Positions 39,123 to 60,793 of a stretch of 64,000 nt of DNA are shown piece by piece (position 1 is the first letter of the stretch; every line of letters starts with the position of its first letter). The translations under genes and the position numbers were made by a program. Source of the stretch: Desulfovibrio sp. Fe33 (GTDB taxonomy: Bacteria; Desulfobacterota; Desulfovibrionia; Desulfovibrionales; Desulfovibrionaceae); assembly GCF_028532725.1 (NCBI RefSeq), contig NZ_JAQKGU010000005.1, positions 62,001-126,000 on the forward strand, given 5' to 3'. The notes under the pieces are model-generated. The model saw only the letters and a program-made list of their open reading frames with translations. It had not been told where the DNA came from and ran no database searches.

Positions 39123-39209
39123 ATCTCTTTATCCCAAATTATTGAGCATGTGGCGGGGCCCTGCCGTTTTACGAGCAAGACCCCGCACCGCTTTCAAAGA
39201 CTTAGTTGG

Positions 39210-39283
39210 CAGGGGCAGAGGGATTCGAACCCCCAACATCCGGTTTTGGAGACCGGCGTTCTAGCCGTTGGAACTATGCCCCT
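39210..39283 (-). tRNA. tRNA-Trp (anticodon CCA)
   Basis: Cloverleaf: acceptor AGGGGCA/TGCCCCT, D stem GTTC/GAAC, anticodon stem CCGGT/ACCGG with loop CTCCAAA (anticodon CCA), T stem GGGGG/CCCTC with TTCGAAT. The genomic bases after the discriminator do not encode CCA, so CCA must be added, unlike the four tRNAs upstream of tuf. Confidence 0.97.
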
Positions 39284-39295
39284 GCTCTATCGAAT

Positions 39296-39445
39296 CTACT
39301 TGGACTCTTTGTGGAGAGTGTGCTTCTTGTCCCAGGGACAATACTTGGACACTTCCAGACGTCCGGTAGTATTCTTCTTGTTCTTCTGCGTAGCGTAATT
39401 CTTACGCTTGCACTCGGTGCATTGCAGCTGAATGTTGACTCGCAT
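39296..39445 (-). CDS. rpmG: 50S ribosomal protein L33
   Basis: 49 residues, starting [19 protein letters not shown]. Has the first zinc pair (C9, C12) but the second pair is incomplete: C36 is present and the position of the fourth Cys is Asp39 (KYCPWDKKH). It may bind zinc with Asp or His42 as ligand. Found in the usual place between tuf and tRNA-Trp/secE. Too short for common gene-length cut-offs. Confidence 0.95.
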
Positions 39446-39447
39446 GA

Positions 39448-40641
39448 TTACTCCGTGATCTCGGTGACGACACCGGCACCGACGGTGCGGCCGCCTTCGC
39501 GGATGGCGAAGCGCAGACCGACTTCCATGGCGATGGGGGCGATCATCTCAACATTGAAGGTGGCATTATCGCCGGGCATGACCATTTCGACGCCCTCTTC
39601 CAGGGTGACGACGCCGGTGACGTCGGTCGTACGGAAGTAGAACTGCGGACGGTAGCCGGAGAAGAACGGGGTGTGGCGGCCGCCTTCATCCTTGGACAGG
39701 ACGTAGACTTCGGCCTTGAACTTGGTGTGCGGGGTGATGGAACCGGGCTTGGCAGCAACCTGGCCGCGTTCCACTTCCTCGCGCTTCACGCCACGGATCA
39801 GCAGACCGACGTTGTCACCGGCCTGGCCCTGGTCGAGCAGCTTGCGGAACATCTCGACACCGGTGCAGGTGGTCTTGATGGTGGGCTTGATGCCGATGAT
39901 TTCGATTTCGTCGCCGACCTTGACGACACCGCGCTCCACACGACCGGTGATAACGGTACCACGGCCGGAGATGGAGAAGACGTCCTCAACGGGCATCAGG
40001 AACGGCATGTCGATGTCGCGCTCCGGTTCGGGGATATACTCGTCGCAGGCGGCCAGCAGATCAAAGATCGGCTTGGCGGCAGGATCGTCGACGGACTCGC
40101 ATTCCAGGGCCTTCAGGGCGGAACCCTGGATGACCGGAACGTCGTCGCCGGGGAAGTCGTACTTGGACAGCAGCTCGCGAATTTCGAGCTCGACCAGTTC
40201 CAGCAGCTCTTCGTCGTCGACCATGTCGCACTTGTTCATGAAGACGACCATGGCGGGCACGCCGACCTGACGGGCGAGCAGGATGTGCTCACGAGTCTGG
40301 GGCATGGGACCGTCGGTGGCGGCGCAAACCAGAATAGCGCCATCCATCTGGGCGGCGCCAGTGATCATGTTCTTGATGTAGTCGGCGTGACCGGGGCAGT
40401 CCACGTGAGCATAGTGACGCTTTTCGGTCTCGTACTCAACGTGGGAAGTGGCGATGGTGATGCCGCGCTCTTTTTCTTCAGGAGCCTTGTCGATCTCGTC
40501 GAAGGCAATGAACTCGCCATGACCGGCCATGGCGGCCAGCTTGGTGATAGCAGCGGTCAGCGTGGTCTTACCATGGTCGATGTGACCGATGGTGCCGATG
40601 TTGACGTGAGGCTTGCTACGTTCAAATTTAGCTTTACCCAT
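39448..40641 (-). CDS. tuf: Elongation factor Tu
   Basis: 397 residues from ATG 40641 ([16 protein letters not shown]). G1 motif GHIDHGKTT (Ile where most EF-Tu have Val), [16 protein letters not shown], then domains 2 and 3 ending [15 protein letters not shown]. Delivers aminoacyl-tRNA to the ribosome. Immediately downstream of four tRNA genes, as for tufB in E. coli. The only tuf in the window. Confidence 0.98.
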
Positions 40642-40725
40642 TTCAGTAACCCCCTGGATCAATAAAGTTGTGTAGGTTTCTATTTTCTAAATACTTGTTG
40701 ACAGCGCTAAAACAAAAAAACGTTC

Positions 40726-40801
40726 TGGAGCTCACGACCGGAATTGAACCGGTGACCTCATCCTTACCAAGGATGTGCTCTACCGACTGAGCTACGTGAG
40801 C
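40726..40801 (-). tRNA. tRNA-Thr (anticodon GGT)
   Basis: 76 bases including an encoded CCA end. Acceptor GCTCACG/CGTGAGC, D arm AGCTCAGTCGGTAGAGC, anticodon loop TTGGTAA (anticodon GGT), T arm CCGGTTCAATTCCGG. Last of four tRNAs before tuf. Confidence 0.97.
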
Positions 40802-40848
40802 AAAGCCACTCACTGTTGTAATGATGGATTAAGAGAGAGAAGGCTTAG

Positions 40849-40925
40849 TGGAGCGGGAAACGGGACTCGAACCCGCAACCCTCAGCTTGGAAGGCTGATG
40901 CTCTAGCCAATTGAGCTATTCCCGC
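40849..40925 (-). tRNA. tRNA-Gly (anticodon TCC)
   Basis: 77 bases with encoded CCA. Acceptor GCGGGAA, D arm AGCTCAATTGGCTAGAGC, anticodon stem TCAGC/GCTGA with loop CTTCCAA (anticodon TCC), T arm GCGGGTTCGAGTCCCGT. Confidence 0.97.
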
Positions 40926-40988
40926 TCACTCTCTGTAGTCCATCAGCAGCTCCTGAAGCCGCCTCCTACAGTGTGACTCGAAAAAAAG

Positions 40989-41074
40989 TGGTGGTGGGGG
41001 GAGGATTTGAACCTCCGAAGGCGAATGCCGACAGATTTACAGTCTGTTCCCTTTGGCCACTCGGGAACCCCACC
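40989..41074 (-). tRNA. tRNA-Tyr (anticodon GTA)
   Basis: 86 bases with encoded CCA and the long variable arm typical of bacterial tRNA-Tyr. Acceptor GGTGGGG/CCCCACC, anticodon loop CTGTAAA (anticodon GTA), T arm GGAGGTTCAAATCCTCC. Confidence 0.97.
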
Positions 41075-41086
41075 ATTTTATCTTAC

Positions 41087-41162
41087 TGGAGCTGGCGATG
41101 GGACTTGAACCCGCAACCGGCTGATTACAAATCAGCTGCTCTACCAATTGAGCTACGCCAGC
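41087..41162 (-). tRNA. tRNA-Thr (anticodon TGT)
   Basis: 76 bases with encoded CCA. Acceptor GCTGGCG/CGCCAGC, anticodon stem CTGAT/ATCAG with loop TTGTA centred on anticodon TGT, T arm GCGGGTTCAAGTCCCAT. First gene of the tRNA-tuf transcript. Confidence 0.97.
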
Positions 41163-43360: not shown

Positions 43361-44374
43361 ATGGCCACCCAGTCCACTGACATTCTGCTCGAAGCGGGCA
43401 CCAACGAGCTGGAAATCGTCGAATTCTACCTTGAAGAGGAACCCAAGGAATCCGCCGAAACCGAGGCCAACCAGGAAGACCAGGCGAACGGAAACGGGCA
43501 CAAACCCAGCCGCAAAGGATACTACGGCGTCAACGTGGCCAAGGTGCTGGAGATCATCCGGATGCCCAAGGTCACGGAGATGCCCGAGGTTTCCCACTCG
43601 TCCGTGCTCGGCGCCTTCAACCTCCGCTCACGGATCATCCCCCTGCTCGATCTGTCCATCTGGCTCAAGAAAAAACGGGTGGAAAACGAGCCGCCCAAGG
43701 TCATCGTCACCGAATTCAACCAAGTCACTTCGGCCTTCATGGTCTCAGGCGTGACCCGCATCCACCGCATCTCCTGGGAGGATGTGGAAGCGCCCAACAA
43801 ATACGTGTCCGCCCTGTCCTCGGACTCCATCACCGGCGTGGTCAAATTCGAAGACCGCATCGTCTTCATCCTCGACCTGGAACGCATCGTCTCGGAGCTC
43901 AACCCGGCCATGCGCCTCCGGTTCGACGACAACTTCGTCCTCGACGGCTTCTCCGGATACAAAGCCCTCATCGCCGACGATTCCCCGCTCATCCGCGAAA
44001 TGATCCGCGACATGCTCGGCCAGGCCGGATTTCAGGTGGAAAAAACCACCAACGGCCGGGAATGCTGGGACCGGCTGCTGGAAATCAAGAAACGCGCCCT
44101 GGAAGAGGACCGGCCCATCACTGATTATGTCCAGGTCCTGGTCTCGGACATCGAAATGCCCATGATGGACGGCCACCATCTGTGCAGGCGCGTCAAGGAG
44201 GACCCGGTCCTGCGCAGCCTGCCGGTCATTCTCTTCTCATCGCTCATCACCGACAAGCTCCGCCACCGAGGTGAAACCGTAGGCGCGGACGACCAAATCT
44301 CGAAACCCGAAATCACCCAGCTCGCCCGGCGCGCAGCCGCGCTCATCGAGGACCGCAAGACGCGGAGCAGATAA
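43361..44374 (+). CDS. cheV: Chemotaxis protein CheV (CheW domain plus response regulator)
   Basis: 337 residues. N-terminal CheW-like domain (about 15-185) with an inserted acidic, low-complexity stretch of about 28 residues (EPKESAETEANQEDQ and on) between the first strands. C-terminal receiver domain (about 200-330) with the acidic pair in IADDSPLI, phospho-acceptor Asp in SDIEMPMMDG, and conserved Lys in DQISKPE. Couples receptors to CheA and may tune adaptation. Monocistronic by appearance; no other chemotaxis gene nearby. Confidence 0.93.
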   Translation: MATQSTDILLEAGTNELEIVEFYLEEEPKESAETEANQEDQANGNGHKPSRKGYYGVNVAKVLEIIRMPKVTEMPEVSHSSVLGAFNLRSRIIPLLDLSIWLKKKRVENEPPKVIVTEFNQVTSAFMVSGVTRIHRISWEDVEAPNKYVSALSSDSITGVVKFEDRIVFILDLERIVSELNPAMRLRFDDNFVLDGFSGYKALIADDSPLIREMIRDMLGQAGFQVEKTTNGRECWDRLLEIKKRALEEDRPITDYVQVLVSDIEMPMMDGHHLCRRVKEDPVLRSLPVILFSSLITDKLRHRGETVGADDQISKPEITQLARRAAALIEDRKTRSR

Positions 44375-44459
44375 GCGGCCAAGCCTGATATAAACTTCCA
44401 AGACAAAGGGGTTCGGTTTGCCGGGCTCCTTTTTCTTGTTTTTGAAGAGCCTCCGGCGG

Positions 44460-44497
44460 CCAGAGGAGGAAACTTTTGAAAAAGTTTCCCCCTCTGG
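44460..44497. repeat. Long intergenic hairpin after cheV
   Basis: 18-base arms, from CCAGAGGAGG onward (44460-44477) and the reverse complement (44480-44497), with one mismatch and a GA centre. Preceded by CTCCGGCGG and followed by CCAAACTTTTTGGCGCCGC. T-runs lie on both sides but not in standard terminator position. Possibly a dispersed intergenic repeat; it could still act as the cheV terminator. The 498-base gap 44375-44872 holds this, the repeat at 44571-44763 and the hypE terminator. Confidence 0.7.
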
Positions 44498-44570
44498 ACT
44501 CCCCCTTCCAAACTTTTTGGCGCCGCTTCGCGGGGGAGTGAGCGCGATCATTTTTCCTTCTTTTTTTTAC

Positions 44571-44763
44571 AAAGTGGACCCTTATGGCAACTCCCCGCTT
44601 TCACGGCAGGACGCCGTGGAGCAAGGAAAAATCCACGCCGAAAGGCGCATACAGGGGATGCAAAGGAACCCTTGCCCGCGGAAGGCGAAATCATCCGGCT
44701 CTTTCCGCGAAGCGGCTTTCAATGCTTGATTTTCGTCTTCAGGGAGTTGAAGGGGTAATTTCC
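44571..44763 (+). repeat. Dispersed 190-bp element, copy 1 (structured)
   Basis: About 193 bases that align, with few gaps, to the reverse complement of 59994-60185. Shared blocks include TACAGGGGATGCAA, CCCTTGCCCGC, GGCGAAATCA, CCGCGAAGCGGC and CTTCAGG. Hairpins: CACGGC/GCCGTG (44602-44607 with 44613-44618), alternatively CGTGGA/TCCACG (44615-44620 with 44632-44637), CGCC-GAAA-GGCG, GCAA.GG/CC.TTGC, and CCGC-GAA-GCGG. Lies between the convergent genes cheV and hypE. An open frame across it is not conserved codon-wise with copy 2. Confidence 0.8.
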
Positions 44764-44820
44764 TTTGCAAAGGGTGCCCTCGCTCCCCTTTCCTCCTGGC
44801 TGTCGGAGGCAGAACAAACA

Positions 44821-57927: not shown

Positions 57928-59096
57928 AAAAACTGTGCGAAAAATACGCGGCCAAGCTCGCCGCCCAAGGGATAGCCCCCGCCCAGGGACCGGACGCGCC
58001 GCTCATAGGCGGCCTTGACGCCGAACTGGCCTGGAACCGGGAGGACCCGAAAATTCCCCTTCTCTCCGGCCTGTTCGACAACCTGTCCATCAACTCGCTG
58101 GTTTTCGTCCGTCCCGCGGAGCCGTTCCGGACCATCCTGGACTTTCTGGCCGCGCGCAATCCGAAAGCCATCCGCCCCGAGGACACCGAGACGCGCACCT
58201 TTCTGCACGACATACCCGTGTGCCCGGAGCTCGCCCTTCCGGCCATGACCGACAGGCTCAAACGACGCAAGGTCATCGTCCTGCCGGGCCAGGGCGTCAT
58301 CGCCTGCGGCACGGTCACTCCGGAGCAGGGATTCGTGTCCGTCTCCTCCGCAATTTTCTCGACCTTCGTCCTCTTCTTTTCCGACTACCTCAACCGCGCC
58401 CGGCGCGACGAGCTCGACAGCGAATACGCTGAAGCCTTCTCCCGTGTGGTTCGGCTCCTGCCGAAACCGCGCACGGACCTGCCGTCTCTCGCCCAAGGCC
58501 CCTTCCGGGACGAGGAAAGCGTTGTCTCCGCCATGGCCGAAGCGGGCCGCAAGGTGGTGGAATTCGGCTTGGTCGATTCATTTTTCGGCAACATTTCCTA
58601 CCTGTTGAACGGCACCATACACATCTCGCAGACCGGCAGTTCCCTGGACGAGTTGGCAGGCTGCATTGATCCGTGTCCCCTGGACGGTTCGTCCACCAAC
58701 GGACTGACCGCTTCCAGCGAATTGACGGCCCATGAGGACGTCTACCGCCGCTCGCGCTACGACTGCATCCTGCACGGCCACCCCAAATTTTCGGTCATCA
58801 TGTCCATGGACTGCGATCGCGGCGATTGCCCGAACCGGGGCCGATGCCACATCGCCTGCAAGGAATGCCGGACCGTGGACGGCGTGCCAGTGGTGCCGGG
58901 AGAGGTCGGCACGGGGCCGACCGGGCTGTGCCACACCCTGCCGCCCGCTATGGCCGCCAACGGCGCGGCCCTGGTCCATGGGCACGGCCTGTTCACCGCG
59001 GGCGAGCACGATTTCAACGCGCCCTTTGCCCGGCTGCTCGAAATCGAAAACCGCTGCCGTGAACTCTATTTCGAAAGGTTGTCCCAATATGTCTGA
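57924..59096 (+). CDS. Two-domain class II aldolase family protein with cysteine-rich insert
   Basis: 390 residues; start overlaps the AOR stop by 4 bases. The C-terminal domain (about 195-390) has the full class II aldolase signature: GNIS (222-225), TGSSLDEL, SSE with E266 and H270, zinc ligands H284/H286 in LHGHP, and H352/H354 in LVHGHGLF. After HGHP is an unusual insert C297-x4-C302-x5-C308-x3-C312-x2-C315, likely binding Fe-S or zinc. The N-terminal part (about 40-160) looks like a worn second copy: RKVIVLPGQGVIACG matches the aldolase HG(V) motif with His replaced by Q123. Expected reaction is retro-aldol cleavage giving an aldehyde, possibly the AOR substrate; this is inference. Confidence 0.82.
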   Translation: MKKLCEKYAAKLAAQGIAPAQGPDAPLIGGLDAELAWNREDPKIPLLSGLFDNLSINSLVFVRPAEPFRTILDFLAARNPKAIRPEDTETRTFLHDIPVCPELALPAMTDRLKRRKVIVLPGQGVIACGTVTPEQGFVSVSSAIFSTFVLFFSDYLNRARRDELDSEYAEAFSRVVRLLPKPRTDLPSLAQGPFRDEESVVSAMAEAGRKVVEFGLVDSFFGNISYLLNGTIHISQTGSSLDELAGCIDPCPLDGSSTNGLTASSELTAHEDVYRRSRYDCILHGHPKFSVIMSMDCDRGDCPNRGRCHIACKECRTVDGVPVVPGEVGTGPTGLCHTLPPAMAANGAALVHGHGLFTAGEHDFNAPFARLLEIENRCRELYFERLSQYV

Positions 59097-59967
59097 TTCC
59101 CCCGCATCGTTCCGCCCGGGTCCGGTCCTGGCCTTCGTCCTGCTCACCTTTGCGGCGACATGGGGCGCGGAGGGCGCGCTCATCGCCTCCGGGCTGCGTT
59201 TTGACGACCTGGTAAGCCGGTCCTCGCCCGCCCTGTGGCTCATGGGCGTCATGTGGATTCCCGGACTGGCCGGGCTGGCCGTGGCCATGTTTGTGGAGCG
59301 CACCGGCCCGCGCGATCTCATCCTGGCCTTGAGCCTGCGCATGGGCTCGGTCGGCCCATACTTCCTGAGCCTCGGTCTCATCCCCCTGGCCTACGCCGCC
59401 ATGTACGGCCTCACCTGGGGTGCGGGTCTTTCCGGTTTCGATCCCGACCTGAACGAACTGGCCGCCCTGTCCGGCACGCCCATCGGCAGGGACGCAGCCC
59501 TTAAAATCATGCTCCCCCTGTCCATCTTCCTGGGGCCGCTCATCAACTTCGTTTTCGGTCTTGGCGAGGAACTCGGCTGGCGCGGATTTCTCCTGCCCCG
59601 ACTCATGCCGCTCGGCAAAGTCCGCGCCTATCTCATCCTCGGCCTGCTCTGGGGCGTCTGGCACGCTCCGCTCGTTCTGGCCGGACTCAACTATCCCGGC
59701 CAGCCCATCCAGGGCGTCGTCATGATGTGCCTCATCTGCCTGGCATTCGGCGCGTTCCTCAACGAAATGACCCTCCACTACCGCTCCTCCATCCTGGCCG
59801 GATTCCTTCACGGCGCGGCCAACGCACAGGGCTACGGCATATGGACGTGGATGTTCCCCGGCGCGCACCCGCTCCTGGGCGGGGCGATGGGACTCACCGG
59901 CGTGTTCGTCTGGACCGCCGTCACCTGCGTCACCATCATCATCCTTCGCCGCTTGCGGCAGGTGTAG
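59089..59967 (+). CDS. CPBP family intramembrane metalloprotease (CAAX protease-like)
   Basis: 292 residues from ATG 59089, overlapping the aldolase end by 8 bases. About eight transmembrane segments. CPBP/Abi motifs: GEELGWRGFLLPRL (EExxxR), LGLLWGVWHAPLVL (second His motif) and FLHGAANAQG (third). Family members are glutamic-type or metal-type intramembrane peptidases, including Rce1-like CAAX enzymes; bacterial roles are varied. Link to the AOR-aldolase pair is only positional. Confidence 0.88.
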   Translation: MSDSPASFRPGPVLAFVLLTFAATWGAEGALIASGLRFDDLVSRSSPALWLMGVMWIPGLAGLAVAMFVERTGPRDLILALSLRMGSVGPYFLSLGLIPLAYAAMYGLTWGAGLSGFDPDLNELAALSGTPIGRDAALKIMLPLSIFLGPLINFVFGLGEELGWRGFLLPRLMPLGKVRAYLILGLLWGVWHAPLVLAGLNYPGQPIQGVVMMCLICLAFGAFLNEMTLHYRSSILAGFLHGAANAQGYGIWTWMFPGAHPLLGGAMGLTGVFVWTAVTCVTIIILRRLRQV

Positions 59968-59993
59968 CTTCGAGTCGATTCCCTTTTTTTTGG

Positions 59994-60185
59994 GGAAATA
60001 GCCGTGAATTTCCTGAAGAGTAAAATCAGGCGATGATAGCCGCTTCGCGGCAATAGTCAGGTGATTTCGCCTCCGGCGGGCAAGGGCTCGCACCCTTGCA
60101 TCCCCTGTAAGCGCCTTCGGCGCGGGCTTTTTCGCTCCGCGGCATTACCCGCGATAGCGGAGAGTTGAGTCTATAGGCCCTTTTT
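59994..60185 (-). repeat. Dispersed 190-bp element, copy 2 (structured, inverted)
   Basis: Reverse complement aligns along its whole length with 44571-44763. Relative to copy 1 it has a 4-base insertion that completes the stem CAAGGG-TGCGAG-CCCTTG. The hairpin corresponding to CACGGC/GCCGTG is CGCGG/CCGCG here (60138-60142 with 60149-60153), so an A-T pair has become G-C. It lies in the convergent gap after the CPBP gene. No gene is supported between 59968 and 60551; that stretch holds this repeat, a terminator and a candidate RNA. Confidence 0.8.
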
Positions 60186-60551: not shown

Positions 60552-60707
60552 TTAGAGTTTTTCGAAATATTCTTTTTCCGCGCCGCACTGGGGACAGACC
60601 CAGTCGTCGGGAAGGTCCTCGAACTTGGTCCCGATGGCGATGTTGTTTTCCGGATCGCCTTCAGCCGGGTCATACACATAGCCGCACGGGCATTCCCATT
60701 TATCCAT
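60552..60707 (-). CDS. Rubredoxin
   Basis: 51 residues from ATG 60707, with GGAGG 8 bases upstream. Iron ligands in the two motifs [11 protein letters not shown] and [11 protein letters not shown]. The first is CPCG, i.e. CxCG, not the usual CxxCG: one residue shorter between the ligand cysteines, as in type II rubredoxins (for example Rd2 of D. desulfuricans and others). Small cytoplasmic electron carrier, for example to superoxide reductase or oxygen reductase systems; no such partner is adjacent. The reading frame upstream is open but is ruvB antisense-free spacer and not coding. Confidence 0.93.
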
Positions 60708-60793
60708 TTCTCGTACCTCCATTTTTTTCAAGTTGGATTCCATGATAGCAGAACCAAGTTGGGAAACAACCTTTTTCTGAGAACGAGTACTAT

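Follow-up and report, generated by a model that had tools for sequence, protein, structure and literature searches.

The window analysed here, a 64,000-nucleotide stretch of the Desulfovibrio sp. Fe33 genome, carries two copies of a structured repeat. Searches of the window found both in the opposite orientations and at the places given in the original prediction, and gene calls retrained on seed genes bore out that each lies in a gene-free gap, in both cases between convergent genes. Copy 1 (44575..44764, plus strand, measured from inverted repeat to inverted repeat) is flanked by a CheW/response-regulator protein (43361-44374, plus strand), which we take to be CheV, and by an AIRS-domain protein (from 44873, minus strand), presumably HypE. 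Copy 2 (about 59993..60180, minus strand) lies between an Rce1-like protein (59089-59967, plus strand) and a rubredoxin (60552-60743, minus strand), these descriptions being those of the Pfam domains. Seven of the best eight relatives of the CheV-like protein, 79-84% identical to it, come from Pseudodesulfovibrio, and the best (85%) is assigned to Desulfovibrionaceae; judged from these closest relatives, the genus to which the genome counts below refer is Pseudodesulfovibrio. Just upstream of copy 1 is a second repeat (window 44448-44545; CCTCCGGCGGCCAGAGGAGG...CCTCTGGACTCCC...CGCTTCGCG), whose layout of a GGCGG hairpin, a longer hairpin and CTCCC resembles that of the element. The same gap in the nearest genome tested, G034, has it too, and when up to three substitutions are allowed, 514 kb of loci from the Fe33 genome contain part of it 6 times.

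Aligned over 160 bases, the two copies share 77.5% identity, and a search of the fetched loci matches them at E ~1e-28. Copy 1 sits between a left target duplication, TTACAAAG (44567..44574), and a right one, TTGCAAAG (44765..44772), which agree at 7 of 8 positions, while the corresponding duplication at copy 2 is just 5/8 equal. The terminal inverted repeats of copy 1 (44575..44596, plus strand, and 44743..44764, minus strand), placed by the family consensus, are degenerate. Inside these ends is a conserved core of four hairpins, at 44636..44715 on the plus strand in copy 1 (hairpin 1, 44636-44647; hairpin 2, 44660-44675; hairpin 3, 44677-44687; hairpin 4, 44705-44715) and at 60039..60123 on the minus strand in copy 2 (hairpin 1, 60111-60123; hairpin 2, 60080-60099; hairpin 3, 60068-60078; hairpin 4, 60039-60051). 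The CCGC-GAA-GCGG motif singled out at the start is hairpin 4 and is indeed unchanged between the copies. Hairpins 2 and 3 of copy 1 are both degenerate, and what had been read as a 4-base insertion in copy 2 is instead the family norm, with a 4-base deletion inside hairpin 2 of copy 1.

The family is large. The original prediction was to fall if the genome held only these two copies, and it holds many more: a covariance model built from 45 copies gave at least 149 matches at E<=0.001 in the 3.46 Mb genome, where a plain DNA search gave 47. Strong copies number at least 123 (125 of 142 rows from the fetched loci exceeded 100 bits, minus 2 cut duplicates), which by arithmetic is about 0.7% of the genome. 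Among the genomes of the genus, the model made from the genome's own copies (R1) matched at least 28 of 36, Fe33 included, at E<=1e-6. In the relatives' copies examined, except those of G034 and G023, the likeness was mostly confined to the core, and the strong copies of G034 among the matches listed, five in number, were all at places common to both genomes. At four loci (L023:11-512, L032:1975-2522, L036:1994-2613 and L124:2001-2551) three units follow one another in direct tandem at a spacing of 180-230 bp, and locus L019 has two tandem units where G034 has one.

The stem on which the original prediction leaned, CACGGC/GCCGTG in the left arm of copy 1 (44602..44618, plus strand), was said to show pair-preserving changes, but its pairing is not kept in the family. 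In alignment A1, made of 45 of the 50 own-genome copies listed, 68.8% of 266 cells were paired against a shuffled mean of 69.1%, the covariation score (0.125 vs 0.119 shuffled) was reached by 169 of 500 shuffles, and 13 of 44 copies had A facing C at columns 22/37. An alternative left-arm pairing, CCGC/GCGG, was kept in 28-33 of 44-45 copies and the outer left-arm pairing in 32-38 of 42-45 (plain counts), and pairing counts gave no support to the idea of two alternative folds. The covariance-model check proposed at the outset thus came out both ways, with covariation no better than chance in the named stem and with hairpins that covary across the genus in the core.

The core is about 100 nt long. 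Its alignment (A4) draws 35 of its 51 sequences from other genomes of the genus and 16 from Fe33. Eleven of 60 candidates were dropped by eye as chance matches or as degenerate or redundant copies (among them L167, L176, L177, L181, L023:391 and L152:9331), and the two window copies were added; the paired percentage, 92.5% of 1061 cells against 79.2% when shuffled and 33.5-44.3% when slid, is somewhat raised by this dropping. Both sides had changed in 15 of the 21 pairs. Covariation was 0.341 against 0.136 for shuffles, none of 500 being as high, though the statistic ignores kinship, and relatedness by itself can beat shuffles. One old split between types A and B is part of this signal, so that the cells are not independent events: GCAAGGG...CCCTTGC stands against CCAAAGGG...CCCTTTGG, with GGAAGGG...CCCTTCC and GCAGGGG...CCCCTGC as other forms. 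Within the Fe33 genome the core stems are nearly invariant and the RNAalifold covariation term is about nil. Taken across the genus, the aligned sequences indicate that the core structure is maintained through compensatory change.

The fold of the 199-nt consensus, to which the inverted ends contribute, had a z score of -6.15 as RNA, -4.47 on the other strand and -5.15 as DNA. Counted as a clue to the strand, wobble pairs were G-T in 2 cases and A-C in 8 in A1, and 27 and 28 in A4; a looser parse, which itself favours G-T, gave 14 G-T vs 11 A-C in the genome's own copies and 43 vs 11 in relatives, where 19 were at one loop-closing pair. At curated thresholds Rfam matched only five tRNAs in the window and nothing in the element; these tRNA genes (Trp, Thr, Gly, Tyr, Thr; 39207-41162, minus strand) are ordinary. 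With four loci searched at E<=5, the sole row within a copy was Clostridiales-2 in L010, at 19.8 of the 58.6 bits needed. One copy, L177:2001-2119, has cleanly lost hairpin 2, as though by recombination between hairpins 1 and 3.

Outside the core, the consensus begins with GGGAmCTATannTTTAACTCCC and ends with its inverse (short form GGGAmCTAT...TTAACTCCC). The two ends are mutually inverse in the consensus and degenerate in most copies: both were recognised in 46 of 88 solitary copies, and the other 42 were without one recognisable end. An 8-bp direct duplication, at least 7/8 equal, flanked 7 of the 46 copies with both ends, against a shuffled mean of 1.2 and a maximum of 5 in 300 trials. The excess was smaller at 9 bp than at 8, and at 10 bp fell inside the shuffled range. 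Four duplications were perfect (ATATGAAT, ATAGGAAT, TACGGTAT and AAAGAAAA); most have decayed, and in A/T runs such short duplications are easily matched by chance.

Comparison with G034 (40 stretches and 13 loci) located both flanks of 23 copies. No element was present in 17 of the 23 comparable rows. Ten rows, from 9 loci, were empty sites with short gaps of 3-56 bp, and seven held other sequence, with core-like remnants seen by eye at L043 and L149; the site of copy 1 belongs to this second class. The element was at the same place in five rows (4 loci), and one row (L140) had other core copies. Loss in G034 is possible site by site, given the seven rows of other sequence and the five occupied ones. 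The clearest empty site is that of L009, where a single ATAATAAT in G034 corresponds to ATAGGAAT on both sides of the Fe33 copy. In addition, the cheV-to-hypE gap was without the element in five of nine loci listed (L044, L045, L047, L048 and L051). Copy number, inverted-repeat ends, the 8-bp duplication and the empty sites of G034 together point to a MITE-like non-autonomous transposon, so the early suggestion of a structured mobile element rather than junk was well founded. A pattern for the terminal inverted repeats, with up to two mismatches, was then run over the 36 genomes of the genus. It gave 18 matches in Fe33 and 6 in G023, all at copies of the repeat and each of the 18 beside an R1 match, while a reversed control pattern gave 9, in other genomes. 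No autonomous element with the same ends appeared in these 36 genomes at this stringency. Orphan MITEs exist, so a missing autonomous partner weakens the assignment to MITEs without ending it.

The element prefers gene 3' ends. A first round of gene calling produced antisense shadow ORFs and 35 divergent placements and missed the cheV-like gene; it was replaced by a caller retrained on hand-chosen seed genes. Context and flanks were examined for 121 strong copies; the other two of the 123, L174 and the leading unit of L023, were truncated and left out. Fifty-eight lay between convergent genes, 31 in gaps whose genes run against the element, 24 in gaps whose genes run with it and 1 between divergent genes; 7 were unplaced. 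Counted by gap, 49 of 98 occupied gaps were convergent, 48 same-strand (27 against the element and 21 with it) and 1 divergent, compared with 9, 60 and 35 of the 104 element-free gaps of at least 100 bp in the same loci. Of the 88 solitary copies, 52 adjoined a terminator-like stem with a T tract; among 1500 control points drawn at random from 111 element-free 3' gaps the share was 8.1%. An A/T run of at least 5 was found at 51 of 88 copies against 169 of the 1500 points. By the rule applied, 36 of the 88 had no terminator hairpin. The terminator was on the left only in 17 cases, on the right only in 34 and on both sides in 1, a 17:34 split that may reflect a preferred orientation. The evidence for transposition and for target preference is good.

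It is probable, at about 0.8, that the repeat is a terminator-preferring MITE-like element whose conserved hairpin core has a wider range than the element itself. On this reading it is a gene-free DNA transposon of about 190-200 bp, bounded by terminal inverted repeats of about 22-26 bp and duplicating 8 bp of its target. It has spread to more than 120 places, with a preference for the A/T tracts of intrinsic terminators at gene 3' ends, and would have been moved by a DDE-type transposase supplied in trans. Such sites would tolerate insertion because a terminator keeps a T tract through the 8-bp duplication. As for the core, the likeliest guess is a cis-acting structure required by the element or its forerunner, or one that blocks transcription at gene ends.

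No description of the repeat was found in the literature searched (open-licence PMC only), but it can be set beside several known systems. Prokaryotic MITEs such as the QMITEs of Coxiella and MITEAba12, as presented in PMC10969869, are likewise short and gene-free, with terminal inverted repeats, target duplication and many intergenic copies; compared with those described there, the present element favours terminator tracts and has a multi-hairpin core in common with relatives that lack these ends. The BOX, RUP and SPRITE repeats of pneumococcus are also small and intergenic, with terminator-like or structured parts, and belong to an unrelated host (PMC10969869). Class C group II introns are mobile and insert downstream of intrinsic (Rho-independent) terminators, according to PMC3522654. 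They are ribozymes with a reverse transcriptase (PMC3522654), whereas the present element is about 200 bp long, has inverted repeats and duplicates 8 bp. A reverse transcriptase would not fit into that length, the window had no group II match at curated thresholds, and this candidate was rejected.

The core neighbours found on opposite strands within 230 bases of each other face by their 5' ends in 14 of 16 cases, and 11 of these 14 pairs consist of one type A and one type B core. A script found four inverted core pairs in the Fe33 genome itself, each with a CCAAAGGG-type and a GCAAGGG-type member (L165:8608-8915, L180:2001-2300, L152:9150-9451 and L156:8999-9329). Such inverted pairs, with the extragenic hairpins and the high copy number, recall the REP, BIME and REPIN sequences, and a repeat of REP/REPIN type would have been moved by a Y1 transposase (RAYT). 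This is very improbable here: Y1_Tnp occurs in 17 of the 36 genus genomes and is absent from the repeat-rich G004, G007, G029, G031 and G033, and the core anchor was found in none of 20 fetched Y1_Tnp loci, which gives a RAYT link no support. The present repeat also has a longer core, and its 198-column consensus, the form in which the tags were sought, is free of GTAG and CGTC on both strands.

How the middle of the element has stayed uniform bears on two further explanations. Over 104 own-genome copies, divergence was 0.32 in the ends. Linkers, like the loops of hairpins 2 and 4, had 0.12-0.14, and the values were lower still in the loop of hairpin 1 (0.045), that of hairpin 3 (0.019) and the stems (0.008-0.025). 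If the family came from a recent burst of a few source copies whose ends already varied, the core would be alike from youth alone. The tandem arrays, the differing core consensus among relatives and the absence of most tested copies from G034 would fit, but within the very same copies decay has gone much further in the ends and duplications than in the core. The common core variants, moreover, are unlinked, with all four combinations at 45 of 45 site pairs and a mean r2 of 0.015, unlike the tree expected of a recent source, and this explanation is quite unlikely.

The other explanation makes the core a functional host RNA or DNA element, either a structure of the 3'-UTR or one that insulates convergent genes from each other, selected locus by locus, with the transposon ends as a mere vehicle. 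The genus-wide compensatory changes, the placement at gene 3' ends and the low divergence of the stems speak for it, as do the ten common core polymorphisms, all ten of which lie outside stems (chance ~0.0025 for random placement in 98 columns, 42 of them stem) and so favour selection on pairing. Rare variants, however, are hardly more frequent in loops (0.016-0.029) than in stems. Six comparisons of orthologous cores, two of which used one and the same G034 copy, gave 38 differences in 582 positions, barely closer than paralogous cores (0.084), although orthology still shows in the ends (47 differences in 382 positions over three pairs, vs 0.29-0.33 for paralogous ends). In copy 1, hairpins 2 and 3 are damaged. 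Selection of the core at each locus on the host's behalf is somewhat unlikely. The scarce loop variants, the unlinked common variants and the likeness of orthologous to paralogous cores favour exchange among copies, even if independent mutation at tolerant sites would also produce unlinked variants. The uniformity of the core would most simply be explained by selection on pairing plus gene conversion among copies of the MITE-like element.

The core is also found beyond the element. With strict filters, the core model (R2) matched at least 73 of 149 genomes of the family, in 25 of 44 genera, Fe33 and its genus included. In the order it matched at least 58 of 150; nine belong to a single genus from a different family, and all others to the family of Fe33. 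In the phylum it matched at least 2 of 198 (strict filters), both again of that family. A 20-nt core anchor with up to four substitutions was absent from 80 named loci examined; L052 has a stretch resembling hairpins 2 and 3. At least two core-like matches were seen in viral contigs of IMG/VR (L364:7209-7558 and L365:14032-14064), by a pattern that misses one common type, and these may be host flanks of prophages. On the evidence of these model matches, the core occurs in relatives without the ends of the element and thus outranges it. A bolder proposal, which we hold tentatively and consider doubtful, is that the four-hairpin core is an undescribed Desulfovibrionaceae structure older than its carriers, occurring alone, paired or in tandem, which was captured by a terminator-targeting transposon and selected as a transcript end or insulator at more than 100 loci.

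A DNA transposon that favours terminators would parallel, by another chemistry, the way in which class C group II introns settle at safe sites. Its decaying ends and kept middle allow transposon decay, selection and gene conversion to be told apart within single copies of about 200 bp, for which G034, as a sister genome of empty sites, serves as a control. The core is the more novel part, compared with the MITE-like element, and its presence across the family without an Rfam match makes a role for its hairpins at gene ends directly testable.
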